From assembly GCF_947623445.1 (NCBI RefSeq), contig NC_135241.1, forward strand, positions 3,412,501-3,476,500: a stretch of 64,000 bases of DNA, in the 5' to 3' direction. Shown here piece by piece: positions 4,746 to 29,566 of this stretch. The stretch's first letter is position 1, and each line of letters opens with the position of its first letter. The DNA is from Clavelina lepadiformis. Lineage: Eukaryota; Chordata; Ascidiacea; Aplousobranchia; Clavelinidae. Below the pieces are notes generated by a model. That model ran no database searches. It was not told the origin of the DNA and was given only the letters and a program-made list of their open reading frames with translations. The position numbers were made by a program, and so were the translations under genes.

Positions 4746-4975
4746 ATGGTAGTTGATCAACTGAGTGACAGTTCATTTGAGTGACACATTGGTAAGTACT
4801 GTTCAAACTACAGTAATGGGTTAGAGTTAGGGTTAGGGTGAGGGTTAGAGTTAGGGTTAGGGTTAGTGTTAGGGTTAGGGTTAATTATGTCACTCGAATG
4901 AATAATTTATGTCATAATTATGTCACTCAAATACTGTCACTCAAATGAACTGTCACTCAGATGATATACAACCAT
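4746..4975. mobile_element. Short inverted-repeat element carrying telomere-like repeats
   Basis: A 230-bp MITE-like element. The ends are imperfect inverted repeats of about 40 bp, both reading atggt...ctgagtgacagttcattt... inward. The 5-bp word ttagt flanks it at 4741-4745 and 4976-4980 and is the likely target-site duplication. The interior (4818-4883) is a run of TTAGGG, TTAGAG and TTAGTG units resembling telomeric repeat. No coding capacity, so it would depend on a transposase supplied elsewhere; family not assigned. Confidence 0.65.
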
Positions 4976-5337: not shown

Positions 5338-8300
5338 ATGACCGAAGTAAGTTTCGAGATAATGTGTTATGCAGGCCTAGAATATGCGTTGGTGTTGTTG
5401 TTAAACGCTACTAAGTTAGATCTTCTGTTAAAGCGGGGAAAATTGAAGCAAATTTCTTGTGTTTTACAGAGGGAACCTGCAAGCATAAAATACTTTGTCG
5501 CCAAAGAGATATTATGTAATTTGACAAACAATGTTCTTGGTCGCGGAGGATTTGGAACTGTTCGGCTTGGCCATCATCAAATCTTGGGCAGGCTAGCTGT
5601 CAAATGCACGAATCTAGAAGGTTCTCCGGATGACCTTAAAAGGAATAAAGATCAGTGAGTACTTTTGACTGCTATAGTTTAAGTTAAAGAGATGGTGTGG
5701 TTCCTTGGCCAAAACCCTAGCTCTAGTTTTGACGTTGCTTATTTTCATTGTAGTAAATCACGCCCATCCGACAAATTTAGTTTTTAGAAGTGAGCATAAA
5801 ATGTATTATAGCTTGTAGGCTATTATAAGAGCTTGTATACAAGCTTATGAGCTTGTATTTGGCTTTCTCTGGCGTGTTTGGCTGTCGCGTCACCCACGGA
5901 TATGGGTTGTACAGTTATTTAAATTGTTTTTCAAGGATACTAAGAGAGATAAAGATGATGATCTTAGCAAGACACAAGCACGTAGTTGACGTGCATGGCG
6001 TGATTGATGAAGAGAAATTCATCGGTCTTGTTATGGAGCATATGCCAGCAGGATCATTTTATGATTTTATTTTTAACAAGAAACTTCCATCCCTACCCAT
6101 GCCTCTTCTTCTTCGCATGAACTATGAATCCTCGGATGGCATCACCTATCTTCATAAACTACTTAAAGATCGTCGCATCGCTCATGGAGATCTTAAACCA
6201 CAGAACATATTACTTACCGCTGATCTTCATTGTAAAGTTGCTGATTTTGGTGGAGCTGCTTTCTCTCAAAACACCATTTCTTATGGCACACCTACTGCTC
6301 CTGACAAGCCTGGGGAAGGAAAAGAATACACTTGGGTTTTTACGGCCCCAGAAAGACTAAACGGAGATTGTAATCGTTTGACCACTTCCATGGATGTTTA
6401 TAGCTTTGGAGTGATCCTCTTCATGTCAGTGGCGCGAAAGTATCCTGAACTTCCTCGAATAGTGATGAAGGTTCTAAATTCTGAAAACCCATTTGAAGAT
6501 GACTTTGATTTGTTTAAAAAAGGTCTTGAAGAAAATAGTGAAGATCTAAAAATTACCACTCTCTTTGAGAGCATTATGGTAAAATCTGTGGATAAAGATC
6601 CATCAAAACGACCGCCAATGATCAGAATACGAGATCAACTTCAAGACCAGTTGAAACAAATAAAGCTCACAACGTTAGCACAGCACGTTGCTAATGTCTT
6701 ACCTCATGTTGAAATAAGAGAGGTTTTGTTAAACAAAAATGATTGCAGACCCATCAATGAGTTGTATTCGAAAAGTAAGTTAATATTGTTAATAAAGTTA
6801 ATATGAATAATAAGTTATTAAAACTTATCAACTTATTCAAACTTATTAAAATAAGTTAATAACTTAATATAGGTCGTTTGTCATCGGTGTGTACTCATAA
6901 TGATTTAAGGTCAAGTGTTTTTGTGTTATTTTCTTGTAGCCAAACCACGGCTTTCAACAGCATCACGTGGAGAAAATGAAAACGTTAATGCTGATAACTT
7001 TTCCAGTAAAAATGTGAACGTTGTTCGAAAAGAAGAAGACGGAATTGATTCAGGTCAGTTTGAGGGGTTGTGTTTTATGAACAAACATGTGACTGCAACA
7101 GGTTTGGACCAAACAAGGATAGCGCAGCAGTTTGGTATGTACAAAAACTTGTAGGCTTAGCTATTGATGCTATTTTGAATATGTTGCAGGTTATAGCACT
7201 ATCCTTGTAAAAATGCAAACTGTCAAAGGCAAACTTGTCGAAAATGGCACTGACGACGCGAATTCGCAAGCCGATAAACTATTCGCTCTTATCAAATCAA
7301 ATTCACTCTCACACGATCAAGCATTGCGTGTGGCTTATGACATCATCAAACTCACAAAAGGTTTCCCAAAAGAAAAGTTTTCCTGCACAATAATAAAACT
7401 TCTTGAAAGTGTGAGTCTCATATTCAAGTGGATAGAAAAACCTTGCGATAAACTTAAACTCATAATTGAATGTATTTTGAGAGCAAACGTGTGTGTAGCC
7501 AATTTTGTTATGAATTTGAAGATGAAAGAGAAAATTTGTGAAAAGGTTATTAGTTATTTGATTGATGTTCGAGAAGTGATTGATATGTCTGGGTGTGATG
7601 ATGACAGGCTTGTTGTGAAAACGAAAGCGTTTCGTTGGCTGTGTTTGGGATTGTGCTACAGACAACTCAAAAACAACGATCAAGCTCTCAATGTAAATAT
7701 CAAAGCTGTCAGTGCTTTGGAATCAGTGTTTGGCAGCGATTGCAATAAGTTGTCAGTTTATGCATCCTGCTGTAATAACTTGGCGGCTGATTACCAAATC
7801 AAGGGCAAACCAGGGAAACAGCTTGAATACTTTTTAAAGTCTCACTATGCTAAGCGGGAAACAACGGATTACGAAGATGAAGAGAAATGGAGAAGGGATC
7901 AGTTCATAACTTTGTCAAGTAAAAATGAAATTGATTTGCATCGTAAATTTTTTTCGTTGCTCCACAGTTTACATTGATCATTTACATTAAAATGGCATTA
8001 ATTTTAAAATATTTTTTGCAGATGTATGTTATATGTACGAAAACTACACAGAGTTGTCCAAGCGTAAAGCGCCAGAGATTCTAGATTATCTTCTTCAAGC
8101 ATCCCAACATCTTACAGGCTGGGCACTCTTTCAGAATGAAATGATGGCTTTGCGTTTTGCTCTTATAATGAAAAGAAAACCGCTCCAAATCGAGTTTTGC
8201 AAAAAAGTGGTTCATAAGTCCTCCACCTTGTCTGCACCCTCTGACCGGTATTTTGATCTTTGCTATCAGGCCAAGTGCATAGTAAAAAGTCTTCTAAGTG

Positions 8301-8884
8301 AGAAATTGCATGAATTAGCATCTTCATTATTACAATGTGCAATACAATGGTGTAAGCACATCCCTGAAGTAGACCTGCTACACAAGACGTACGACGACCT
8401 CAGTCGTATTGTTTGCGAGTCTTCATGTCCACCTAAGCAGCTCGCTTTGATTTCAACCGGCTTTGTTGATGAAATTGTCAATGACATCACAAGGTTTCAG
8501 TGTCACGACAAGCTCGATAATTTGAAAGCCCTTGGTCGAGTTCTTGAAAGATTTACACGACCTAACAGAAGGACCAGGAACTACAGACAAGATTTAGTAT
8601 CAGCTGTGGACCTCATGCGACGTTATGCACGTGAAACGTTGGGTCACTCGCCACAGCAGAGAAACAGAAAAGGAGAAGTTCAGTATCAAATTGCTCTTTG
8701 TCAAAATAACCTTGGAAATGTTAAACTTGCAAAAGAAGCACTCCTTCAAGCTGTTGAAATCTTGCAAAGCGTCCCAGTTACACACCGGAATGAAGACATC
8801 ATTAACAAATGTTTGCAGAAAATCATAGAACTGAATGAGAACAATCCAGAAGAGGAGGAGGAGAAAAAATGTCGGATTTCGTGA
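5338..8884 (+). CDS. RIPK-like protein kinase with C-terminal TPR-type domain, copy A
   Basis: Six coding exons: 5338-5346, 5470-5654, 5936-6774, 6940-7053, 7190-7918, 8022-8884. They sum to 912 codons plus stop with consistent phases. Residues 20-300 form a protein kinase domain of the TKL/RIPK type: G-loop GRGGFG (27-32), Lys48, alpha-C Glu near 69, catalytic HGDLKPQN with Asp150, DFG at 168-170, APE at 202-204, and DVYSFGVILF. All key catalytic residues are present. A short acidic and Ser-rich linker exon follows. The two last exons (about 530 residues) are helical and TPR-like, for example around QNNLGNVKLAKEALLQAVEI. Likely a cytoplasmic signalling kinase; substrate and pathway unknown. 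The first 340 bp of exon 3 are almost identical to copy C (12351-15753). An ATTAAA lies at 8959. An open frame through 5347-5469 is intron read-through, not coding. Confidence 0.85.
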
Positions 8885-12350: not shown

Positions 12351-15300
12351 ATGGACAAAGTGAGTGGCTTACAAATAAGATGAAATCTTTTGGTTTAAAT
12401 CATAACGTTAATAACCTCAAAAGAAACTGTGATAGACCTAATATAAACAATTAGTACTTAGTTTACAGCCCCGCTTATTTCTGTGCAGTTGACACCGGAA
12501 AATATAACTGTTAAACAAATTAGTTCCGAGGAGATACTTTGTAATGTCAAAAGCAATGTTCTCGGTCGAGGAGGGTTTGGAATTGTACTGCTTGGACATC
12601 ACCGCATTCTTGGTCAAGTTGCCGTCAAATGTAAACATCTACGGGAGTCTAACAAAGGCGTGAAGGAATCCAATAATGAGTAAATAAACCTTGAGTTATC
12701 AAAAAAAAAACATTTTAATTATTGATAAGCTATGCCTAAGCTAAGCTAAACTGTAATATCAAGACATAATTTTTGATACAACCATATGCTGCTGCAGGAT
12801 ACTAAGAGAGATAAAGATGATGATCTTAGCAAGACACAAGCACGTAGTTGACGTGCATGGCGTGATTGATGAAGAGAAATTCATCGGTCTTGTGATGGAG
12901 CATATGCCAGCAGGATCATTTTATGATTTTATTTTTAACAAGAAACTTCCATCCCTACCCATGCCTCTTCTTCTTCGCATGAACTATGAATCCTCGGATG
13001 GCATCACCTATCTTCATAAACTACTTAAAGATCGTCGCATCGCTCATGGAGATCTTAAACCACAGAACATATTACTTACCGCTGATCTTCATTGTAAAGT
13101 TGCTGATTTTGGTGGAGCTGCTTTCTCTCAAAACACCTTTTTAGATGAAGGGATTGCCGACCAGTCGGGAGAAGGCGCTCAGTGCACAATCAGTTTTACA
13201 GCTCCCGAACGAATGGATCCCAACTGCAAGCGTTTGACTACTTCCATGGATGTTTATAGTTTTGGAGTGATCCTCTTCATGTCAATGGCGCGAAAGTATC
13301 CTGAATTTCCTCGAATAGTGATGAAGGTTCTAAAATCTGAAAACCCGTTTGAAGATGATTTGACTCGAATAAAAGGTCGCTCTGAAGGGAACAGCGAAGA
13401 TAAGAAAAATTTAGATTCACTTGAAAGCATCATGGCTATGTGCGTAGATAAGGACCCATCAAAACGCTTATCAATGATTGAAGTACGAGATCAGCTTCAA
13501 CAACAACTGAAATCGATCAAACTCACAACAATAGCACAGCAGGTTGCTAATGTCTTGGCTCACATTGACGTCAGAGATGATGGGTTGCAAGAGAATGCTT
13601 GCAAACAAATCAATCAAGTGATATCAAGAAGTAGGTAACAGGACCCTTCGTACTTTAGTAAATTTGGCACTTTGTTTTATTTGGTAAATGTATGACTACA
13701 ACTTTTACTATGGTTTCAGATAATTATTTAGAGGAACTAGAACATTCTGGTAATCCATCATCAGAAGATGAAGAAGTTGTTTTTGAAGAGAGTGAATCCA
13801 AGCTCACAGTAATAGAACAAACAGAAGAGAAACAAAATACTGATTCAGGTTAACCATTTTTTAAAACGTAAATTAAAAAATAATGCAATTTCCGTTTTAC
13901 AAGTAAACTGTACCTAATGGTTAAATATAGCATTAATACTCATAATAATATAGGTTAGAACTTTCGGGTAGAAAAAATATGCAATATGCTATGCAGATTA
14001 TGAAAGCATCAAACTGAAAAAACAGGAAATAAATGATTTTCTGACTCAAAAACTTGTCGATGACGCAATTGTGAAATGTGATGAGCTATTGTCCCTTGTC
14101 AAATCGACCCTACTCTCGCAGGAAAAAGCACTATGTCTGGGTTATGACATCATCAAACTTGTTGATGTTCTGTTGGAAAATAAGTTGTTCACCAGGCTGG
14201 TTAAGTTTTTAGAAAGTGTGAGCTACTTACACATATGGATCGAAAATCCTCCTGACAAACTAGAGTTGTTACAACAATATATTGACAAAGCAGCTGATTG
14301 CGTCATGCAGTACACTCCCAGTGATAAACTAAAACAAACGATCTGTAGACAGCTCATCACGTACATGGATCATGTATTGGATGTGATTACTTTAACAAGC
14401 TGTGCCGACAAAAAGCTTGTTGTTAAAACCGAAGCAGCCAGAGCTAAATGCCTTGGTTTGTGCGAAAAAGAGCTAAAAAATGTTGACAAAGCTATTTCCA
14501 TCAACATACAGACCATTAGAAAATTGAAGGTAGTTTTCGGGGACGATCGTGTCAAATTATCTGTGTATGGCTCATGCTGTCACAATTTGGCTACCATCTA
14601 TGAAAGCAAAGGTCAATATAAAGGGGCTCTAAGATACTATTTAAAATCTCACTTCGCGCACCGAGTGACAGAAGATTATAAAGATGAGTCAAAATGGAGA
14701 CGAAGTCAGTTTCTGAATTTATGGGGTAAGAATATTTGGAAAACTTTAAGCTAAGTGTGGTAAATGGTAGACCAACAAATTTTTCCTGAAATATGACATA
14801 TTTCAACTTAAAAGCTATCAAATTTGCACGTCAATAAATAGGTAATTTCAGGTTTGTAGCAAGCAAATCCGTTTATCAGTAGTATAATTGTGGCATAAAG
14901 TTTTACTTTTGTTTTAGGCATATGCAACATGCACGAAAAAACCCCGTCGTTTCACAAAAAGAAAGTAAAGGAGATATTTCGTTATCTACAAGACCAATAT
15001 CTTACAGGTTTTTCGCATTTTGTAAATGCATTAATGGTGCTGCGATTTGCCGTGATTCTCGGGCGGCCAGACGAGCAAGTCAAATTATTATGTGACAACG
15101 TCGTATCTATGACCACCTCCATATCACCACCAAGTGATCAGTGTTACAACATATGTTATCAGGCAGAGCGCGTAGCTGAAAGCTTGTTTCTGGTAAAGCG
15201 AGACGAAGCTGCTTTTTCTTTAATGCATTGTGTTATCTGTTGGTGGAAACACATTCTTGTACCAAGCCAAAGGTGTCAGATAGCTTCTGACATGGCTGAC

Positions 15301-15753
15301 ATAATTTCAGATAGTTTAACAAGATCTTCGTCGTCTTTTTCATCCCAGTTTGCATCCGTTTCGTCAGATTTTATCTTAATTTGTGAAGAACTTATCGAAA
15401 GCCTCGAGAAATGTTGCGACTGTGATGAAATAGCAAAATTGGCTGAAATTGGCTTAGCCCTTAAAACCCTATGTAATTGCTTCAACAAAATCAAAAATTA
15501 CAGACAGTGTTTGATATCATCAAAGTTATCGCTTCGTTTCCTTTCGCTTGACACTGAATGTCACACAACTGATCGAAACAACGCAAAAGGAGACATGCAC
15601 TTCCGTATGGCTTACTCACAGTACCACCTCGGCGATCACGTTGGAGCCAAATCTGCTTTTCTCAAAGCACTAAGGCATTATGTCAGCGTTCCAGATGAAT
15701 ACAAACAGACAGCAAACATAACTATATGTTGGAATAATATAAAAACTTTATAG
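12351..15753 (+). CDS. RIPK-like protein kinase with C-terminal TPR-type domain, copy C
   Basis: Same six-exon plan as copy A: 12351-12359 (MDK), 12489-12679, 12798-13630, 13720-13848, 13997-14725, 14918-15753; 908 codons plus stop. Intron phases are identical to copy A and exon 5 has the same length (729 nt). The kinase domain holds GRGGFG (29-34), Lys50, HGDLKPQN with Asp152, DFG at 170 and a TAPER APE motif, so it should be active. The linker exon is acidic (SSEDEEVVFEESES). The helical part includes TPR-like stretches (SVYGSCCHNLATIYESKGQY, GDHVGAKSAFLKAL). Against copy A it is almost identical for the first 340 bp of exon 3, about 95% by eye over a later block, and clearly diverged in the activation segment and TPR part. 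AATAAA occurs at 16092. Probable paralogue with a different input or partner; function not known. Confidence 0.85.
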
Positions 15754-17758: not shown

Positions 17759-20700
17759 TCAACATTCGATATTATAGCGAATTCGCTTTTCGCAAAGACC
17801 CTTGATTTTGGAACTACACTTCAGGTCGTTGGTATAGGAAGAGGTTAGGGTTGCACAGTCTTCATTATTTCCAGAGTCGTTAGGCTCGTCTCCTCCCCAA
17901 CCAACGTTTTCTCTGGTAACTGCAAAACCATCAATAAACATCCAGCGACCTTCTTCGTCCAGGTCTGTAACACCGATCCATGCCGTTTGATGAAATCGAT
18001 TCTTAAGTTGCCTGCAAACATATTTTGAAAAAGTCTTTTATTTTGAAATAAAAACGAGCTCGACAAACGAAAAACGACAATAATAACTTACGCGTAATTC
18101 TGTAGGCATAATGTGTAAAAATTTAATTGTGCTCACATATACGAGGTATACATGTATTTCGTTTTAGTTAATTCACCGAAAAATGTGTTTTGATAAAGTA
18201 GTGCACTATAGATCTTAAATTCATGACAATCTTAATAAACTACTGGGTTGATGCATTTTGCCATTCTTACCGAAAAATCTTATAGGTTAAGAGACCAAGT
18301 AGTGAACTTCACTATAGGTAGCCTAGACGCTAGTAATCAAAAGTGTGATTCAACTTGAAACGTGGAAGATCCTTACATACTTACTGTCTAATCTCTCCGT
18401 CTCTGATTCCAACTGTAGCCAAGTGCCCTCCTTGTCTTGTACAAGACTCATTGCTTTGTTGCCAAGTATGTCTTGGAATCAGTTTATATTGATAACCGTT
18501 TGGCATGTTCACCCAACCTTCTGCACCAACGCTTGCTCGAATTACTGCAAAATCGTTTAAGATAAATATATAAAAAAAAATGTTATTATCTTCGATGGAA
18601 GGAATTTGATAGAAAAAAGTTGCTCCACAGTGAAGACCAATGTACCTCGGCACACATCGGTAACTTTTTGTTCATTCAACGTTATAGCTTCATTTACCTC
18701 CGTTAAGGAGTCTGTCAATTCTGCAAATAAATGATATCAATACTACAGCAAGTCTATATTGATAAATGCTATCGTTTTGCAAAGCAATGTGTTTTCTATG
18801 GTTAAGTGGCACCTTTTCTTAATTGAGCTGTAAGGTTTGAAAGACTTTCTCCAAGATTGGTGATCTCGTTGTCTACGTTAAGTCCTGTATTGGAAATAAA
18901 ATACTAATCTATATGAATTCAAATTAATTTAGAAGCCTAAACCTGTTTAAATATCACTAGTAAATCTTGTAAAAGGAGAGTTGACAATTGAGAGAGTATT
19001 TTTTAAGTCTGGCTTAACGGAAACCGGCAAAGCCATTCATTTGCAAGAACATCACTTCAGTTAGTTATAGGAAATTATTTTACCGTCAGCACAAACATTT
19101 CTTCTAAAAAGATGCTGGATATAAATTTTCCATGAGTTTGATCTCGAAGAATAAATTGTAAGTTAAGTCCAATTATCATCTTTCTATAAGGTACCTGTAC
19201 CGAATAAGGCCCGGTCCCTAATAAGGCCCATTGCTCATATTTCGCAAACCCGTGCAAATAAATAAAAGATTTTGTCCCTACATAAAAACTAATATAGATT
19301 CATGATGGTTTACCAGATTTCATCCTTGTCACGTGATCAACCGATTCGCTAGAGCACAACAAAAATTTGATACTTGCAGTTAAGGTGGTTTTGGTAATTT
19401 AGAAAAAAAGTAAGTGAGAATTTGGCCGGTTAAATGAACTGTTGTCTGCCGGCTGAAGTTTTCATGTAACAACCAACTTAGTATTGAAAAGGATAATGCA
19501 CTTTTTTTTGCTAAAACTTTTCTGATGATAAAAATGTGACGTTTTTTTCGTGGATGCCACATGCGCCTAATAAGGCCCATACAAGATGCTTGGCTAATTG
19601 ATGTCCAGACTTCAAGAGTGGTTCCAGTCATCAGTTGGAAAATTGTTGCAATTACTTTGATGCGCCTAGTGGAATCTTTTTAAATGTTTGTACAACTTAA
19701 AATGTGAAATTTTTAATAATGTTATATGTTGTTTATTACTATGTTTTGAATCAAAATACTCACAAAATTGGTGGGCCTTATTAGGAGCCTATGCTCCTAA
19801 TAAGGCACATTTTTTTGAATTTTTAATTTCTTTATAAAATTTTTTTGAGGGGTTGTCAGTTATTGTAGTTTGAATATGTTGTAGTCACATACCCTCACTA
19901 ATACAATACGATTTTTCAGTCTATTCTCATTTATGGTTCTTGAGTTATTTTCAAAAAAGTGTTAGGTGGGCCTTATTCGGTACAGGTACCCTTATATTGT
20001 GCTTACTTTTCTTATCTTTTCGTGTGGTTTCTTTGACAAAGTTCCCACTAAGATAACTCATGTTGCCTTGCAAAAATAAATAAAAAAGCATTTAGGTGTA
20101 CGTTCAACAATCCCTTAGCAAAACTCTTAAAAAGGCGTATTTTAAAGCTTTAAGATCATAGGACAAGTGTTTGTAACTCCCAAGCCACTTTAGAATTAAA
20201 ACACTTAATAAACCAACATCAAAATGAACACTTTTCAGCGATCTTTATAAATCTTGCAAAGTTTCCCAATAATTTAGAGGATTCTGTTCAATCTTGCAAC
20301 TTACGGAGAGAGTTGTTCAGAAAGTTTGCAAGGTCCGCTTGAGAATCAGCAACGTCGTTTGCTGAAATAAAAGTTTAATGAAAAAATTTAAACGTGAGAA
20401 AACTGGAAATGTTAAAGACAATCGCGAAAAAACAACAACACTTCATTTGTCGTAAACAGATTTTCTTGATCGCAATCTATAATTATACTTAAGCTAATCG
20501 AGTTATACTTCCTTGTCATGTGCAACACACACGACAATACTAGAAAAGAATCACTCGATATGCCTTATCAAAGAACAATGTGCATTGCTATTTATAATAA
20601 TTAATATCGTTATTTATAAATAGAATACGTTTAAAATACATTATAAACTTTATAAACTTTAATATACGTTTTGCAAGCTAGCAGTTTCTGTTTTTACGCT

Positions 20701-23700
20701 ATCCATTATAAAGGATATGTATCAATAGCTTAAACAAAAGCTAAAAATGGAGTTATACAAGCACATATAGAGGAAAGTAAAGTTTAAAGAGCATTGATTG
20801 AATTGTATATAGCTGATATTGTGAAATACGACTTGCAACTTTTGTATGTAAGAACCTATTTTGCTGCGTATATTTTCTTCCAATTTTATCAGCTTCTCTT
20901 TTTGCAATGCTGTAACATTCTCTGTAAATGAATTTAACAAGTAGTATAAGGTTTTTAAGTACAACCAATTGTAGATATAGTTTCGTTGGAATAGTTTGTA
21001 TCACTTATACCAATTTCATGTCTAACTGAAAGGTCAGTGTGTCTCTTTGACTCAGTGGTTGCATTCTCTGAAAAAGTTGGGTTGAAATAAAAAAGTAATA
21101 AATAAACGGTCCACATAGCTATACAGTATAATCGGTATTTCAAATGTGTTACTCCAACTAGATTATTAAGATTGGAAGAAAATGACTAAATTCATATTTA
21201 CTGACCTACTGCGTATTGTAAATTTCCTTCTAACGTTGCGAGTTCTTTTTCTTGCAGGGCCGAAACATTCTCTTAAAAATAAGTTTCTTTCAAGTAAAAT
21301 ATTCATGATCTATGACTGTTGCAAAAACATAATTTCTAATACATTGTTGCAGAAATAAACAAACCTATTTTTTGCTGAAACGTGACGGCTAATCTGGAAC
21401 ATTGCTCTTTCGTGTAACTGGTTGCGTTTTCTATAAAGAAACGATGATTAAACAAATGTCCAGTGTGGAATTAAATGGCAATAATTGCACCGCAGAGAAA
21501 TAAGACATAATATAACCTATCAATTCATTCTTTGTGTCTTCATAGTTGGAAATGACATCTTCTAAATTGGCGGACTTGATTTCTGAATAAAACAATATGG
21601 GATACTGGGATACAAGAATCACATCGGCTTGTGCAAGATTCATCAACAGATGTGATGCGTATTAAACTTTATGCGTTTTCGAGTTGCATATTATTCTATA
21701 GTCTGGATATAAGGCAACAAGCAAACCCAGTTCTCTACGAAGGACGGTCTTCACGTTTGATATTTGACTTTCTAAGGAACTGGTCGCATTTTCTATTGAA
21801 GGAAAGCAAAGCGCTTTGGTTAGACTACTTCCAATACATTTACAAAGAGTTTTTCAAAATGAAACCTTGAAGAAACTAAATCTTACAAAGTTTCCCAATA
21901 ATTTAGAAGGTTCTGCTCAATCTTGCAACTTACGGAGAGAGTTGTTCAGGAAGTTTGCAAGGTTCGCTTGAGAATCAGCAACATCGTTTGCTGAAATAAA
22001 AGTTTAATGATATGACACTTCATTTGTCGTAAACAGATTTTCTTGATCGCAATCTATAACTACTTGAGCTAATCGAGTTATACTTCCTTGTCATGTGCAA
22101 CACACACGACAATACTAGAAAAGAGTTACTCGATATGCGTTATCAAAGAACAATGTGCATTGCTATTTATAATAATCAATATCGTTATTTATAAATAGAA
22201 TACGTTTAAAATACATTATAAACATTATAAACTTTAATATATGTTTTGCAAGCTAGCAGTTTCTGTTTCTACGCTATCTATTATAAAGGACATGTATCAA
22301 TAGCTTAAACAAAAGCTAAAAATAGAGTTATACAAGCACATTTAGCGGAAAGTAAAGTTTAAAGAGCATTGATTGAATTGTATATAGCTGATATTGTAAA
22401 TTACGACTTGCAACTTTTGTATGAAAGAACCTATTTGGCTGCGTATACTTTCTTCCAATTTCGTCAGCTTCTCTTTTTGCAATGCTGTAACATTCTCTGT
22501 AAATGAATTCAACAAGTAGTATAAGGTTTTTAAGTACAACCAATTGTAGATATAGTTTCGTTGGAATAGTTCGTATCACTTATACCAATTTTATGTCTAA
22601 CTGAAAGGTCAGTGTGTCTCTTTGACTCAGTGGTTGCATTCTCTGGAAAAGTTCGATTGAATTAGAAAAGTAGTAAATAAAAGGTACACAAGGCTATATA
22701 GTATAATCTGTATTTCAAATGCGTTACTCCAACTAGATTATTAAGATTGGAAGAAAAAGACTAAAGTCATGTTTACTGACCTATTGCGTATTGTAAATTT
22801 CCTTCTAACGTTGCGAGTTCTTTTTCGTGCAGGGCCGAAACATTCTCTTAAAAATAAGTTTCTTTCAAGTAAAATATTCATGATTTATGACTGATGCAAA
22901 AACATAATTTCTAATACACTGTTGCAGAAATAAACAAACCTATTTTTTGCTGAAACGTGACCGCTAATCTGGAACATTGCTCTTTCGTGTACCTGGTTGC
23001 GTTTTCTATAAAGAAACGATGATTAAACAAATGTCCAATGTGGAATTAAATAGCGATAAATGCACTGCAGAGCAATAAGACTTAATATAACCTATCAATT
23101 CATTCTTTGTGTCTTCATAGTTGGAAATGACATCTTCTAAATTGGCGGACTTGCTTTCTGAATAAAACAATATGGGATACTGGGATACAAGAATCACATC
23201 AGCTTGTGCAAGATTCATCAACAGATGTGATGCATATTAAACTTTATGCGTTTTCGAGTTGCATATTATTCTATAGTCTGGATATAGGGCAACAAGCAAA
23301 CCCAGTTCTCTACGAAGGACGGTCTTCACGGTTGATATTTGACTTTCTAAGGAACTGGTCGCATTTTCTATTGAAGGAAAGCAAAACGTGAAAGCGCTTG
23401 CTTTGGTTTGACTACTTCCAATACATTTACAAAGAGTTTTTCAAAATGAAACCTCGAAGAAAAAATGTTTTTTATTCTTTTTATTATTAATATTTATTGT
23501 TTTTTATTCTATGATGCATATGCTGTTAAAATTTATAACTTCAGTGCTATACAGCCATTTAAAATGAATGCAAGGTAACTAACCTAATTCATTGCTCATT
23601 TTTAGTTCTAGTTCTTGAAGTTCGTTTGTCTGAGATTGAGTAAAATTTGCTACAAAAATAAAGTTACATTTTCCCATTGCAACATATTCAAAAACTGACA

Positions 23701-25943
23701 AATTAAAAAAAAGTTTTAAAAATTGTAAGAATACAAAGTTACTTTAAATTGTAATATACTGTAGATTTTTTTGCAAATGGCTTACCCACGCTCCGTTTCA
23801 AAGCGTTTACGTCTTCCGTTATTTTAGCGGTAACGTTTTCTGAAAAGGTAGTATAACCGTCAAATTAAACTATATAGGCTATAAGTTATGCATAAGTTTA
23901 AAAGAATTCAAGCAAGCAAAAACTATTTTCGGCGTGTAGTTAATGATCATAGAAATAATTGTCACAGCAGCCAAGGTTTGATGCTGTCTTAACCGACTAA
24001 ATAAACAAATGAGCAAATTCTTGGTGGTTACGAATTTGCTTTCGATCGCAACATTTGAATTTTATGCAAAGCGAAAGCAAAGCGTACAAAGTAGGAGTCG
24101 TAGCTATAAGGAATTAGGACAATGACCAAATTGTTTTGACAACTTATTGCATTGCTATATTTGGGTCAATTCTTCAATGAATTTGTTCAAATATCAACAA
24201 ATGGTTGCTATAACGTTTTAGTTTCAACCTCGGGTTTTCGGCATTTATTTTTATAACCAAGCAAACCTATTTTTTGGATGAGGAGAGTTTTGCTGTCTGA
24301 CAGCTTGTTTTCCACCGCGACAGTCAAATTTTCTGCAAATATTATTGCTTTAAGAAAGTTTGTTGTCAGCATATACATAGTTGCTAAAAGTATATTGTTC
24401 ATAAAATGATTACTTCCTGCTTTTGCGGAAGTACTGTAAGTGCACTGACATAGTTAAACTTCCATTGTTACTGGTTTAGCGAATTTACCGCAACAAATAT
24501 AGCAGGAATGCTTAGCGAGATCACCAAAATATAAATAAGCTTTACCTAAAACTAATCTACTGGTAGATTTTGAGTCCGCCTTAGACAACTTATCTTTCAG
24601 TTGTTCTGCATTTTTCTCTGCAACAAAAAATTTTTAACATTGTCTTATGGCTCTAAAATCTACATTGTATAATATTTACGCTTTCAATTACAACAATTAC
24701 AATAAAATTATGAAGCGTTGCAAAATGTCAGTATTGCAATAGAATAAGATTGAATACAGTAAACCATAATGTCAAAAAATCAAATATTTTTTTAGCAGTG
24801 TATGGGTACTTTCAACTTGATTTTTCATAATCATGTAACTATAAGAAACAAAATTTTGTTTGGTTATTTTTTACAGCCGGTATAGTCAGTGCTATGGCAT
24901 TAAAGCATCAATCATCAGTGAAGTAAGTTCTATACAAACTTACGGATTCCTTGTGAAGTGCTGGCATTGACTTCGGAGATTTGAATCTCCAAGTCATATT
25001 TTACTTTTTCTAGAAAAAATTTTTATACTTAGTGCATTATATATATTATGCTTAGAAATCTTTTCAAAGATGAAACGCTTTGAATGGGTTAAGACCCTAC
25101 TGTAACTACAGTATGTCCGTGATGGCGAGCGTCGCTGCATTAGATTTTAAAACTACATGTATAAGAAATACCTATCTTTTCATCCAGACCACTTTCAAGG
25201 CCAGTGATAACTTCACTTATGTTGTTTGTTATTTTTGTTGTCGAAAAGGAAGCAGCGACAACTGCGTGAAAAATGCATAGGATTGTACTTAAATCTACCT
25301 CTTTGCTGTTTATAATCAGACAAACCTTACCCGATTCTGGATTAGGAACTGAATGAACAGGAGTTTGTATGTTCCTCTATTATCAAAAAAAGAATTTGTA
25401 AACAAAATTACTTATTCAAGATTATAGTTATAGATAAACTTATCTACGTTTTATCATTTGAATATGCTGTTAAACCGAAGTTAAATTTCTTACTGTATAC
25501 GCCATTGAAGCAAGAACTAAAGCCGCAAATGCAACTATGGAGTTTGCCACCAGCAACAGAATCCATTTCTTCGGAAGCGCGCTGTAAGTTTGGTCTGTAG
25601 AACAAACTTCTGTATTAAGATAACTTTACTGCGATGGGAAATGTTTACCGGCTCTTTTCTCTGATAATATTTTAAAAATTCATAGTAAGCTGTATTGTAT
25701 AATATTGTATTTTTTGTTTTTGTGCTGAAAAAAGCTATTATTATTAAAAAAGCTATTAAAAGGTATTAAAGTATTAGTATTAAACCAAGATGTGAATTAA
25801 GGTATTCTTATGGTATTTTTAAGCTGCCGGCCACCGCAAGATTTGGGCAGAATTGTTAGCCTCATAGATAGCTGCTTACGTCTTTCACTCCTTCTTCCGC
25901 AATTGCAGATCGATATTGGCTCCAACGTATTACTTGCTGACAT
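17759..25943 (-). CDS. Type II transmembrane C-type lectin with long exon-modular stalk
   Basis: 28 coding exons, 740 codons plus stop. Order from the 5' end: 25880-25943, 25494-25594, 25331-25376, 25172-25261, 24944-25009, 24546-24617, 24267-24332, 23786-23839, 23584-23649, 23302-23367, 23092-23157, 22940-23005, 22781-22846, 22541-22642, 22431-22496, 21934-21990, 21727-21792, 21517-21582, 21365-21430, 21206-21271, 20966-21067, 20856-20921, 20305-20361, 20007-20066, 18813-18884, 18646-18720, 18385-18544, 17759-18011. A cytoplasmic N-tail is followed by one membrane helix (residues 32-54, WILLLVANSIVAF...), a helical stalk of about 550 residues, and a C-terminal C-type lectin domain. The lectin domain has the four canonical cysteines, WIGVTDLDEEGRW, a Ca2+-site EPN motif typical of mannose-type binding, and ND before LKC. 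Almost all stalk exons are phase 1-1, most of 66 nt, and many start with E-N-x-T/S. Likely a cell-surface glycan receptor; ligand unknown. Confidence 0.85.
19190..19990. mobile_element. Inverted-repeat DNA transposon remnant in a lectin intron
   Basis: An 801-bp element bounded by 23-bp perfect inverted repeats (GGTACCTGTACCGAATAAGG then CCC) at 19190-19212 and 19968-19990. Flanks are TATA-like on both sides, so the target duplication may be TA or TATA; the edge is ambiguous by a base or two. The motif AATAAGGCCCA or a close variant recurs inside and at both ends, about six times in either orientation, and a hairpin lies at 19774-19806. The longest internal frame (19631-19380, minus) does not resemble a known transposase to me. 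Probably non-autonomous; superfamily not assigned. It lies wholly within intron 18885-20006. Confidence 0.72.
20249..21878. repeat. Tandem duplication unit 1 in the lectin gene
   Basis: About 1630-bp block holding seven lectin stalk exons (20305-20361 up to 21727-21792) with their introns. Directly adjoins a near-identical second unit at 21879-23463 in the same orientation. Most of the two units align with a constant 1575-bp offset. Near the left end the offset is 1629 because unit 2 lacks about 54 bp of intron. Confidence 0.85.
21879..23463. repeat. Tandem duplication unit 2 in the lectin gene
   Basis: About 1585-bp block, head to tail with unit 1, with seven exons (21934-21990 up to 23302-23367). 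Introns are nearly as similar as exons, which points to a recent duplication. All duplicated exons keep frame and splice sites, adding 163 residues to the stalk. Confidence 0.85.
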
Positions 25944-26866: not shown

Positions 26867-29566
26867 TCAGGGGAGTCTACATATTTCGTCCTGGTCACAT
26901 TCGTGAAGAGAACCAACCACAAAAGTTGGATAAATTCTCATGAATTTGTCCAAATCACACAGCTGCCCTACAGTGCCCTCTTGTGGGCATCCTGGCACGG
27001 GTACGACGTTTTCATTCCACAAGACTTGGACTTTATAATCTACTGCAAGTGATGGGTCGTCACAACGGTACAGGACGAAAACCAAATTGGCAGCTGTGGG
27101 CACCATTTTAGCAAAACTAAACTCTCTATTTCTTTTAGATTCGAAGTTCTGTGACGTCAACGGTTCGTCAACCTATGAAAGAAGTAATTTTGTAATGAAA
27201 AGAAATAATAAAATAAGTTGAATCTAGGATCAGGTAGTATGTTTTTCCACAAGTGAATTTAAACAAATTAAAACGCGGCGTAAAAAAAATAGGAATATCA
27301 TTAAATGCGTCATTTTACTCACCTCATACAGACGAAAGTTGGCGACCGTCGTCACGAGATTTGAAGTATGAACTAGGCGAAATCTTCCCGTCAGATGAGG
27401 CTGATTCAGCATGTCTTTCGTTCTAGAGTCCAGCAAGGAGCTCATTATCTCTTTCGACACGAAGCAATTCTTTTCATAAGATATAGAAATTTTTCTGCTT
27501 TTCATTTCATAATTCCTGACGTCTTCAGCAAAGCTTAATACTGTTAAACAAACAAGATTCATTGATAATTCCAAGACATTTTACATTTTACGACAAGTAA
27601 AATCTTACTTTCAAGTTCTTCCCTCGTAAACGCTGCACACCAAGGACCGTTCTCGTTGTCCACCCATTGCTGATAATAGCAGCCTATTGTATACATTTTC
27701 CATACGACAGACCTGTCGATGGCACCTTTTGGAAACCCCAATCGTCTAGTAACTCCCTTTACTATACCTTCAACAAGCGGACCTAGAAAATGCATATGAC
27801 GTGATAACGACTTTGTAAACAACGCCTATGATTTTGTGAATTTGTAGATTCCTGAAGCTAAGTGTCTTATAGCGTTTGCGGGATAATTGGGACAATGCAA
27901 AAATACTGACTAACGTATAGCAAAATTGACTTATTAGTATAGCGGGCGACTCTGTATATAAAGATCCATTATAGGGTGCTTGCGTGTAAATGTAGCCTTG
28001 TGTTTGTTGCAGATATAGAGAACCTATACATTTAGAATACGTAGACGTTTTATGCTACCGGTGCGTCAAACATTTCTTCAAGTAAACGACCAGCAAGCAT
28101 AAAAAGGTTAAATATACTTATCTATATGCTGAAAGGCATCAAATACTAGCAACCAAGCTGGTGTACTGTATAGATACCATTTAAAAAGGCTTTGAATTCA
28201 GGTGTGACAGAGACATTTCTTGACACTTTAACCATATACTTCTCGCAGTTTTTGTGGAACATCTGATCATCTTCCAATCTAGGAATAACTTCTTGAGCTT
28301 CATGGAGACGATTTTTGGTTCGCAATTGATCTTCGTCATCCTTTAATATCTCAGTTTTAAAAGGTGATAAAGATTGCCTTGTTTGCGGTATATCCGTGCT
28401 GGAAAACCTGTAGTTATTGAAACCTTATCAGTCATCTTTGCACATTTAATAATTTAGATATCTTGATTAAGGCACGTTCTCTGCTGGTTTACAAATAATA
28501 AGATTTTGCTTTCTCTTATAGACTGAAAAGCTAAACTTTTTTGTGTATAACAGGCACCATAAAAGCACTTCAATGTGATAAAGCGGAAGAGATACCCAAA
28601 CAAAATTATTCAACCTTAAAGAACAGTGATATCTCGCAGCAATTTTAGAGCGTAGGCTGTATGACGTACCTGGTGCTATTATGGCAGATAATAATATTTG
28701 ATCCATTTGTCATCATTTGAACAATAACAGCTAAAACATTTATTTAGTTATAGCTACTGAAATCCGCGTTCATTTCTGCACTTATGTACGATTTCTTTCC
28801 AATAGACCCAATTCGTTTAAACCACTTCAATGTTGGACTTAAGAGCTGTTGCCTAATATCATTTAGATGTTGCCTATATACAGTAATATCAGTAAATAAA
28901 GAAATTAACTTACCAAAATTGATTCGCAGGAATGTCTTTGTTAAGTATTTCAGGAAATGCCTGTTTGAATCTAAACGCCAAATCGCTCATTTCCTTTGCG
29001 CCCTCTCGCGTCACATTTCCGTTATCGTAAATAGTCGCCCAAACTTTCCAATTCAGCAGTGTCTTAAAAAATTTTGTCTTTAAATTAGACAAAAAAGCAC
29101 AAAAACTGTTGCCATACATGTTAAACGTTTTTCTCGTTTCAACCTTTATATCTTCGAGGCATTGCGTTGCGGTTCCAGTGATGTTGATTTTTCTAGCTAG
29201 CTTGAAAAGTTCTGGCAATGCAGGAAAGGAGTCATCGGGATCTGGATACCTCGCTCCGTGACGGATTAACATGTTTATGTGAATGGGCTGACAAACTGTA
29301 ATGAAACAAATGCAGAACATGACATTAACACTCATATGGAGTTCTACTACACTTGTGAGGCGCCCTTTGACATAAAAATCTTCCTGCTTCTTACATTCAG
29401 GAGCTCTCTCCTCTAGTGTTGGGAGTTTCCCACCGACATGCTCGTAAAAAGTTTTCTCTCCAAAGAGACGAAACGGCTCCTCGTCAGTGGAACAGTGGCT
29501 GCGAGTCAAAAGAATTAAAGAACAGAAGACGAGAAGACGAAGACGATATTTAACCTTCTCAATCAT
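26867..29566 (-). CDS. MINPP1: Multiple inositol polyphosphate phosphatase-like, histidine phosphatase family
   Basis: Six exons: 29353-29566, 28914-29295, 28178-28407, 27609-27782, 27323-27540, 26867-27172; 507 codons plus stop with matching phases. The N-terminus is a signal peptide (hydrophobic LLVFCSLILL), as expected for an ER or secreted enzyme. The catalytic signature RHGARYP (residues 83-89) is intact. Downstream blocks match the human MINPP1 order: HKNCEKYMVKVSRNVS, GPLVEGIVKGV, PWCAAFTREELE, and EPLTSQN through ANLVFVLYRCDD to VQVLWNENVVPV. The family hydrolyses inositol polyphosphates such as InsP6. Odd point: the proton-donor motif HAE of the human enzyme is HTS here (residues 391-393), so activity may be altered or lost. 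The exon 1 donor is inferred from phase and a minimum intron length. Confidence 0.82.

Follow-up and report, generated by a model that had tools for sequence, protein, structure and literature searches.

A probable collectin-related, type II C-type lectin from Clavelina lepadiformis with a stalk built mostly of 66-nt exons, many of which open with a putative N-glycosylation sequon

Introduction

Lectin receptors on long necks and coiled coils built from many small exons are both already known, and what appears to be new in the gene described here is their combination. The gene lies on the minus strand of a 64,000-nt stretch of the genome of the ascidian Clavelina lepadiformis (RefSeq assembly GCF_947623445.1, contig NC_135241.1, positions 3,412,501 to 3,476,500), which we call the window. 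It is made up of a candidate first exon, an exon with a hydrophobic segment, a spacer exon (E2), 23 stalk exons (E3-E25, positions 25261-18646) and two C-type lectin domain (CTLD) exons.

The closest precedent for a coiled coil of many small, equal-sized exons is that of the chicken BG genes, of the butyrophilin family, in which 13-36 exons of 21, sometimes 24 nt, encode one heptad each; as described there, these heptads belong to the cytoplasmic tail of a protein with an Ig-V head (PMC4046983), whereas the Clavelina stalk would be an extracellular rod that carries sequons and ends in a lectin head, its 66-nt exons each encoding a double hendecad. The Kupffer cell receptor CLEC4F, a type II C-type lectin whose long coiled-coil neck was elongated in evolution, likewise projects a sugar-binding domain on a long neck, but this neck is described as heptad-based and encoded by a single exon (PMC6422238). 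The necks of DC-SIGN and DC-SIGNR, which likewise hold a C-type lectin away from the membrane, consist of 23-residue tandem helical repeats, with N-glycosylation mentioned in one repeat; a conserved proline interrupts each of them and they pack as heptads into a tetramer (PMC2971551), in contrast to the proline-free Clavelina rod. The lectin-like receptor CD23 (FCER2) stands on a trimeric coiled-coil stalk (PMC6791321), again of heptads, unlike the Clavelina modules. Finally, SCARA4 is a type II protein that joins a helical region and a lectin domain to collagen, and among the class A scavenger receptors the helical region of SCARA3 and SCARA4 is reported to have grown within an exon (PMC3567963).

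Among the best-ranked matches in the open-licence literature, we found no described case in which each exon encodes a double hendecad together with a glycosylation site, and the literature of the same kind on Clavelina and C-type lectins, judged by title and start of abstract, held nothing on this gene. The repeats of DC-SIGN and DC-SIGNR share one exon, while the stalk exons of CD23 are of equal length, 21 residues each; CD23 is not known to carry a sequon per module.

A series of phase 1-1 exons that chance does not explain

We consider it likely that the product of the gene is a type II C-type lectin related to collectins, carried on an N-glycosylated rod of hendecads that is modular by exon. 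Each of the 23 stalk exons is open, a multiple of three, in phase 1-1 and bordered by AG/GT sites; a first-pass annotation, made from the sequence alone, had given phase 1-1 for nearly every one. Exactly 66 nt are found in 13 of them (E4, E6, E8-E12, E14, E16-E19, E21), two more than that annotation had counted, and N-x-T/S stands at residue 2 in 13 (E6-E9, E11-E14, E16, E18-E21), or 14 with the RNMS that, as reported, opens the 60-nt exon E23. The earlier statement that 13 exons open with E-N-x-T/S or A-N-F-T holds in its number and in placing the asparagine second, which is the case in all 13 openings counted; E16, however, opens with QNAT, because its split codon receives a C from the preceding exon. 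The joined model gives 740 residues as the sum of the exon translations when E13 and E20 are taken at 102 nt, the same length as obtained before. The 102-nt ends of these two exons have a poor donor (G/GTTGTA), while a somewhat better one (G/GTATAA) follows after 57 nt, so the internal NYS and NET sequons noted in them are present if the longer forms hold and are removed by the 57-nt donor. The exons would presumably be spliced into one mRNA.

Chance as the source of this series is excluded by control strands. As controls we took 20 paralogous lectin loci, chosen among those behind 117 lectin-domain matches in the genome (209.06 Mb in 95 contigs, with the window on C2 at 3.41-3.48 Mb), and used both strands of each, that is 40 strands of 10 kb; the remaining paralogous loci lie outside this sample. 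Of the 39 candidate exons that a mechanical scan finds on the target strand, 12 have a length of 66 nt and 12 a sequon at residue 2. No control strand yields more than two of either, in total 34 of 66 nt and two with residue-2 sequons (one exon in two lengths), and the 11 other 10-kb strands of window positions 1-60000 yield at most three and one, respectively. With another donor rule, applied to the 40 control strands only, the maxima are three exons of 66 nt and two sequons. None of the 20 loci has a series of sequon-opening or 66-nt exons, one of them (L037) having a single ENFT exon. Moreover, when E16-E22 are dropped as copies (see below), 9 of 16 distinct modules have a residue-2 sequon, against a mean of 0.30 and a maximum of 4 in 20,000 within-module shuffles, and a mean of 0.64 and a maximum of 5 under circular shifts. 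The earlier observation on the stalk exons therefore stands in part, subject to the corrections given above and to the duplication described below.

The stalk also appears only once in this genome. A 225-aa query made of E6-E15 and searched at E up to 1 has 17 matches, all of which fall at the gene's own locus, as do both matches of a query made of the membrane segment and spacer.

The lectin head, the neck and the membrane anchor

The head is a C-type lectin domain by profile (Pfam Lectin_C, 65.5 bits against a cut-off of 22.6, E 8.5e-18) and reads EPNDSGNNEDC...TND..C..LCEK, with EPN...E...ND and all four canonical cysteines; we take the EPN/ND motif to represent mannose-type calcium-site ligands. 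Among the best 60 of 129 matches to solved sequences are mannose receptor 2 (the best), DC-SIGNR, langerin, CLEC4F and CD23.

Within the genome, the nearest paralog of the lectin domain lies on C4 (locus L025), with 52% identity in the second CTLD exon; it begins with a signal-peptide-like segment, and its exons include one with Gly-X-Y and a neck exon of 75 nt in phase 1-1. E25 has the same length and phase as this neck exon and is identical to it at 8 of 25 residues (P 1e-3 against pattern-keeping shuffles, one pair compared). Candidates with the neck pattern occur at 2 of the 20 paralogous loci (L025 and L031), and a run of at least five Gly-X-Y on the lectin strand at seven. In contrast to L025 and L031, which both combine Gly-X-Y collagen with a signal-peptide-like start, the stalk gene has a hydrophobic anchor and no collagen region, its stalk holding no proline and nine glycines in 533 residues. 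The gene thus appears to keep the neck and lectin exons of a collectin, with the rod and the hydrophobic anchor in place of the collagen and the signal peptide; we infer that the change went in this direction and that the neck descends from collectins.

One 24-residue hydrophobic segment followed by a C-terminal CTLD would give the layout of a type II membrane protein, in which the first exon is a candidate only. Y-x-x-hydrophobic motifs serve as endocytosis signals. The YSAL of the proposed cytoplasmic part resembles such a signal and would suit an uptake receptor, the exon that precedes it being again the candidate one.

Elsewhere in the genome, C9:2569540-2633918 holds an array of similar collectin-like lectin genes, five of which score equally and lie about 8.5 kb apart.

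Likely common origin of the core modules

Aligned as a repeat family, as the first-pass annotation had suggested, the eight distinct 66-nt modules resemble each other beyond their hydrophobic pattern. Over residues 5-22 they score 0.50 per pair and position, against -0.51 for full shuffles and 0.16 for shuffles that keep the hydrophobic pattern, none of 3000 of which was as good. In leave-one-out comparisons on the same residues, each of the eight beats full shuffles at P<0.05, while three (E4, E6, E9) also beat the pattern-keeping ones, a number that rises to six on residues 1-22. Of the other exons, E7 fits the module profile as a shortened member (P 0.002) and E5 marginally (P 0.049).

A common origin of the core modules is therefore likely. 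The alternative, that the modules do not all descend from one ancestor and that structural selection gave exons of other origin the 66-nt length and the opening sequon, could draw on the modest similarity that is left beyond pattern and sequon, and on the three of eight modules that pass the strictest leave-one-out test. Yet length, phase and sequon place are alike, the similarity does exceed the hydrophobic pattern, and tandem exon duplication has taken place in this very gene, so that convergence seems to us unlikely.

Probably two hendecads rather than three heptads per module

With the eight distinct 66-nt modules in register, hydrophobic residues are found at position 3 in five (seven with Ala), at 7 in four, at 11 in all eight, at 14 in seven, at 18 in six and at 22 in all eight, a core spacing of 4-4-3. 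Inside these modules, spacing and periodicity are those expected of an 11/3 hendecad with its 3-4-4 core. The hydrophobic spectrum peaks at 3.65 over E6-E12 (power 20.6, against 0.18 at 3.5), at 3.66 over E8-E12, at 3.63 over E4-E12 (11.8 against 0.12) and, with the 57-nt forms, at 3.70 over E4-E22 (26.0 against 0.43); for long stretches of the stalk the power at 3.5 ranges from 0.01 to 1.02. Single-module spectra matter here because a 22-residue repeat has 3.67 harmonics anyway, and 10 of the 12 modules E4-E15 peak singly at 3.62-3.80, the exceptions being E5 (3.92) and E13 (3.90). The three heptads per module proposed at first thus give way to a periodicity of 3.60-3.70 with almost no power at 3.5, and the 22 residues are better read as two 11-residue hendecads.

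The place of the exon borders is constant with respect to both helix and codon, since the direction of the core from the exon start agrees among the 12 distinct modules (at 11/3, R is 0.90 against a null of 0.25, P 1/2001) and the last residue is I, L or V in 12 of 12 distinct modules E4-E15 (p about 3e-8 if these are independent, which shared ancestry would undo). Relative to the core, the sequon residues stand at -138 degrees (N2), -40 (x3) and 58 (T4), so its middle residue is core residue 3 and the asparagine faces outward. It had also been proposed that modules can be skipped without breaking the frame; this is true of the reading frame, all exons being in phase 1-1, while the exact helical phase is kept only by the 22-residue modules (22 = 6 x 11/3).

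A canonical coiled coil of three heptads per module, as in CD23 or CLEC4F and as first proposed, has some points in its favour. Twenty-two is close to 21, E24 and E25, which adjoin the lectin domain, peak at 3.48 and 3.52, a period of 3.5 likewise brings the starts of the modules into phase, E7, E10 and E15 taken alone do not separate 3.5 from 3.65, and a stalk with its modules cut to 21 gives a weak match to the hepatic lectin N-terminal domain (E 0.0053, short of the cut-off). E24 and E25 are, however, the only heptad-like stalk exons, 3.5 periodicity being absent over E4-E22, and the contrast in power given above, the 4-4-3 core spacing and the loss of the 22-mer profile match (see below) when the modules are cut to 21 all argue against heptads, which we regard as rather improbable for the rod.

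A recent duplication of seven exons

The latest multiplication in the stalk involved a block of seven exons, not a single exon, as one tandem duplication copies E9-E15 as E16-E22. The recent copies supply five of the 13 exons of 66 nt and five of the 13 sequon openings, which leaves eight distinct 66-nt exons and eight distinct E/A-N-x-T/S openings (nine with RNMS). The idea of the first-pass annotation, that an ancestral one-exon module with a sequon had been multiplied, is thus partly supported: the repeated module, its symmetric phase and the gain of modules stand, the gain having come by a seven-exon block, and a single ancestor is likely rather than proven.

It is conceivable that the block is an assembly artefact or an unfixed allele and that the usual stalk has 16 exons, as the copies are about 95% identical and selection on them is not detectable. 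HiFi reads are usually longer than the 1.6-kb duplication unit. The copies also differ at about 5% of positions and by indels, and the stalk query finds one locus, points which still leave room for an unfixed allele. Given in addition that the assembly is described as made from 117-fold HiFi reads (PMC10884593), we judge this explanation very unlikely.

A weak likeness to exchangeable apolipoproteins

Exchangeable apolipoproteins are made of 22-residue, 11/3 amphipathic repeats. The distinct stalk (286 residues) matches their Pfam profile (PF01442) at E 4.8e-6, with 26.9 bits against a cut-off of 90, and a longer stalk at E 8.1e-5; the match is gone in four of four module-shuffled controls and in a stalk whose 22-mers are all shortened to 21 residues. 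Membership of the family is rejected on this score, 26.9 bits against a gathering score of 90. We attribute the match to periodicity and not to kinship, because it lies far below the cut-off and sub-threshold PF01442 matches occur in 13 of 14 control genomes. That the helices bind lipid as in these proteins, without a coiled coil, is a very unlikely alternative: apart from this match and one to an Apo A-IV chain at E 0.29, it would have to explain a far too low score, a profile that rewards helical repeats generally, the absence of prolines and a sequon in most modules. Since the stalk gene shares with the apolipoproteins a weak profile match, and differs from them in its proline-free sequence, its one exon per repeat and its sequons, the stalk is expected to work differently.

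The stalk also matches a PDB chain from a phage tail fibre (E 0.01) and, below threshold, the Pfam families UXS1_N and RNase_HII (0.013) and, more weakly, two others; all of these we take as chance resemblance between helical sequences.

Proposed architecture

Under the reading that we prefer, an EPN-type sugar-binding head would sit on a short, collectin-like heptad neck, and this in turn on a long, proline-free alpha-helical rod. With a helix rise of about 0.149 nm per residue, 22 residues correspond to 3.3 nm per module, and a rod of 503-533 residues would measure about 75-79 nm if fully helical. It would be built of phase 1-1 exons, the greater part of them 66 nt long and encoding two hendecads each, with core residues 3, 7, 11, 14, 18 and 22, and the junction between modules (last residue to next residue 3) would again be spaced by three. 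As most modules have N-x-T/S at residues 2-4, with x as core residue 3, putative N-glycans would be carried on the outer face of the rod about every 3.3 nm. The helices may associate as a nearly straight bundle, and the rod probably oligomerises, by analogy as a trimer, with the heptad neck nearest the head fixing the oligomer as in collectins. Such a rod could stiffen and shield the stalk, and would lift the lectin heads some 75 nm off the membrane; its length would evolve by duplication of exons and blocks.

Several observations weigh against this architecture, which we hold as probable. Three of them, the peak at 3.70, a phase test that does not choose a period and a neck missed by the genome search, make us slightly less confident of it and slightly more open to the heptad reading. 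Over E4-E22 the power at 11/3 is only 3.3, and with the 102-nt forms it is 1.0 beside a peak power of 23.4, while all distinct exons E3-E25 together peak at 3.60. The rod is not one uniform hendecad lattice, because modules of 18, 19, 24 and more residues shift the phase. A 22-residue repeat alone forces a harmonic at 22/6 = 3.67, the single-module spectra are coarse, E7, E10 and E15 having nearly equal power at 3.5, and the start-phase test is blind to the period, with an R of 0.91 for a period of 3.6 and of 0.79 for one of 3.5 (P 1/2001 in either case). Five exons fit the module profile poorly (E13, E15, E23, E24 and E25, P 0.08 to 0.69), and of these E13, E15 and E23 count against the proposal. 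Some of the stalk-exon donors are weak (GTTTGC, GTTATA, GTTCTT). As regards the neck, the resemblance is that of one pair compared in place, and a genome search with E23-E25 at E up to 10 gave three matches at the gene's own locus, one elsewhere (E 1.9) and no collectin necks. Finally, purifying selection on the duplicated block was sought and not shown: differing columns make up 15 of 489 in exons (3.1%) against 57 of 1085 in introns (5.3%; P 0.067, with the 102-nt E13), and the nine non-synonymous and four synonymous single changes (ratio 0.61, one further codon having two changes) are indistinguishable from neutral (P 0.50).

If true, this would be a clear example of a protein and a gene architecture that share one unit. 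It would also suggest how a collectin-type lectin can swap its collagen for a helical rod, and would show, as a design found in nature, how a glycosylated rod can be made adjustable in length. It is tempting to speculate further that the stalk is a tunable glycan ruler, in which register-preserving exons vary the height of the receptor and the number of its glycans by splicing or by copy-number differences between individuals, the block being recent and possibly polymorphic; we regard this extension as doubtful.

Features of the gene and other sequences

Table 1. Exons of the lectin gene and the two copies of the duplicated block, in transcript order (positions in the window)
Feature	Positions	Strand	Basis
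Candidate first coding exon (MSASNTLEPISICNCGRRSER), cytoplasmic	25880..25943	-	Open from ATG, donor GAC/GTAAGC, in-phase join to next exon; unconfirmed
Exon with QTYSALPKK and hydrophobic segment WILLLVANSIVAFAALVLASMAYT, type II signal anchor by eye	25494..25594	-	Translation; single locus in genome search
E2, short spacer RNIQTPVHSVPNPES	25331..25376	-	Translation
E3, 90 nt, phase 1-1, internal sequon	25172..25261	-	Translation
E4, 66-nt module, sequon at residue 15	24944..25009	-	Translation
E5, 72-nt module without sequon	24546..24617	-	Translation
E6, 66-nt module, ENLT	24267..24332	-	Translation
E7, 54-nt module, ENVT, 18 residues (11+7)	23786..23839	-	Translation
E8, 66-nt module, ANFT	23584..23649	-	Translation
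E9, 66-nt module, ENAT	23302..23367	-	Translation
E10, 66-nt module without sequon (ESKS)	23092..23157	-	Translation
E11, 66-nt module, ENAT	22940..23005	-	Translation
E12, 66-nt module, ENVS	22781..22846	-	Translation
E13, ENAT, 102 nt, or 57 nt (22586-22642) by alternative donor	22541..22642	-	End uncertain
E14, 66-nt module, ENVT	22431..22496	-	Translation
E15, 57-nt module, sequon near end	21934..21990	-	Translation
E16, 66-nt module, QNAT, copy of E9	21727..21792	-	Translation, copy comparison
E17, 66-nt module, copy of E10	21517..21582	-	Translation, copy comparison
E18, 66-nt module, ENAT, copy of E11	21365..21430	-	Translation, copy comparison
E19, 66-nt module, ENVS, copy of E12	21206..21271	-	Translation, copy comparison
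E20, ENAT, 102 nt, or 57 nt (21011-21067), copy of E13	20966..21067	-	End uncertain
E21, 66-nt module, ENVT, copy of E14	20856..20921	-	Translation, copy comparison
E22, 57-nt module, copy of E15	20305..20361	-	Translation, copy comparison
E23, 60 nt, RNMS at its start, fits module profile poorly	20007..20066	-	Translation, profile
E24, 72 nt, heptad-like, internal NLT	18813..18884	-	Translation, periodicity
E25, 75 nt, heptad-like neck, Cys near end, resembles collectin neck exon	18646..18720	-	Periodicity, paralog alignment
E26, C-type lectin domain, first half	18385..18544	-	Translation, profile
E27, C-type lectin domain, second half, EPN and ND, stop codon	17759..18011	-	Translation, profile
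Tandem duplication, first copy along the transcript, carries E9-E15	21877..23462	-	About 95% identical to 20248-21875, introns included
Tandem duplication, second copy along the transcript, carries E16-E22	20248..21875	-	About 95% identical to first copy

The intron between E23 and E24 holds an 801-bp element with inverted ends (GGTACCTGTACCGAATAAGGCCC) at 19190-19990. Its first 100 bases have 200 candidate matches in the genome, of which 40 were scored; 25 of these, this copy included, are fully identical. The family looks young, because all 40 scored matches are 99-100% identical. Upstream of the lectin gene, a minus-strand frame with RHGARYPD at 28910-29566 is histidine phosphatase-like by eye. 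Two similar blocks, at 5847-8884 and 12817-15753, each have a protein-kinase-like open frame and, after it, two more frames of some 230-280 residues that may be helical repeats; judged by eye, the blocks resemble genes duplicated in tandem. The telomere repeat of vertebrate type, GGGTTA, occurs in eleven imperfect copies inside the chromosome arm at 4818-4883. Outside the window, C9:15642270-15643409 has long open frames (399 and 449 residues), in which four apolipoprotein-like matches are weak and sub-threshold.

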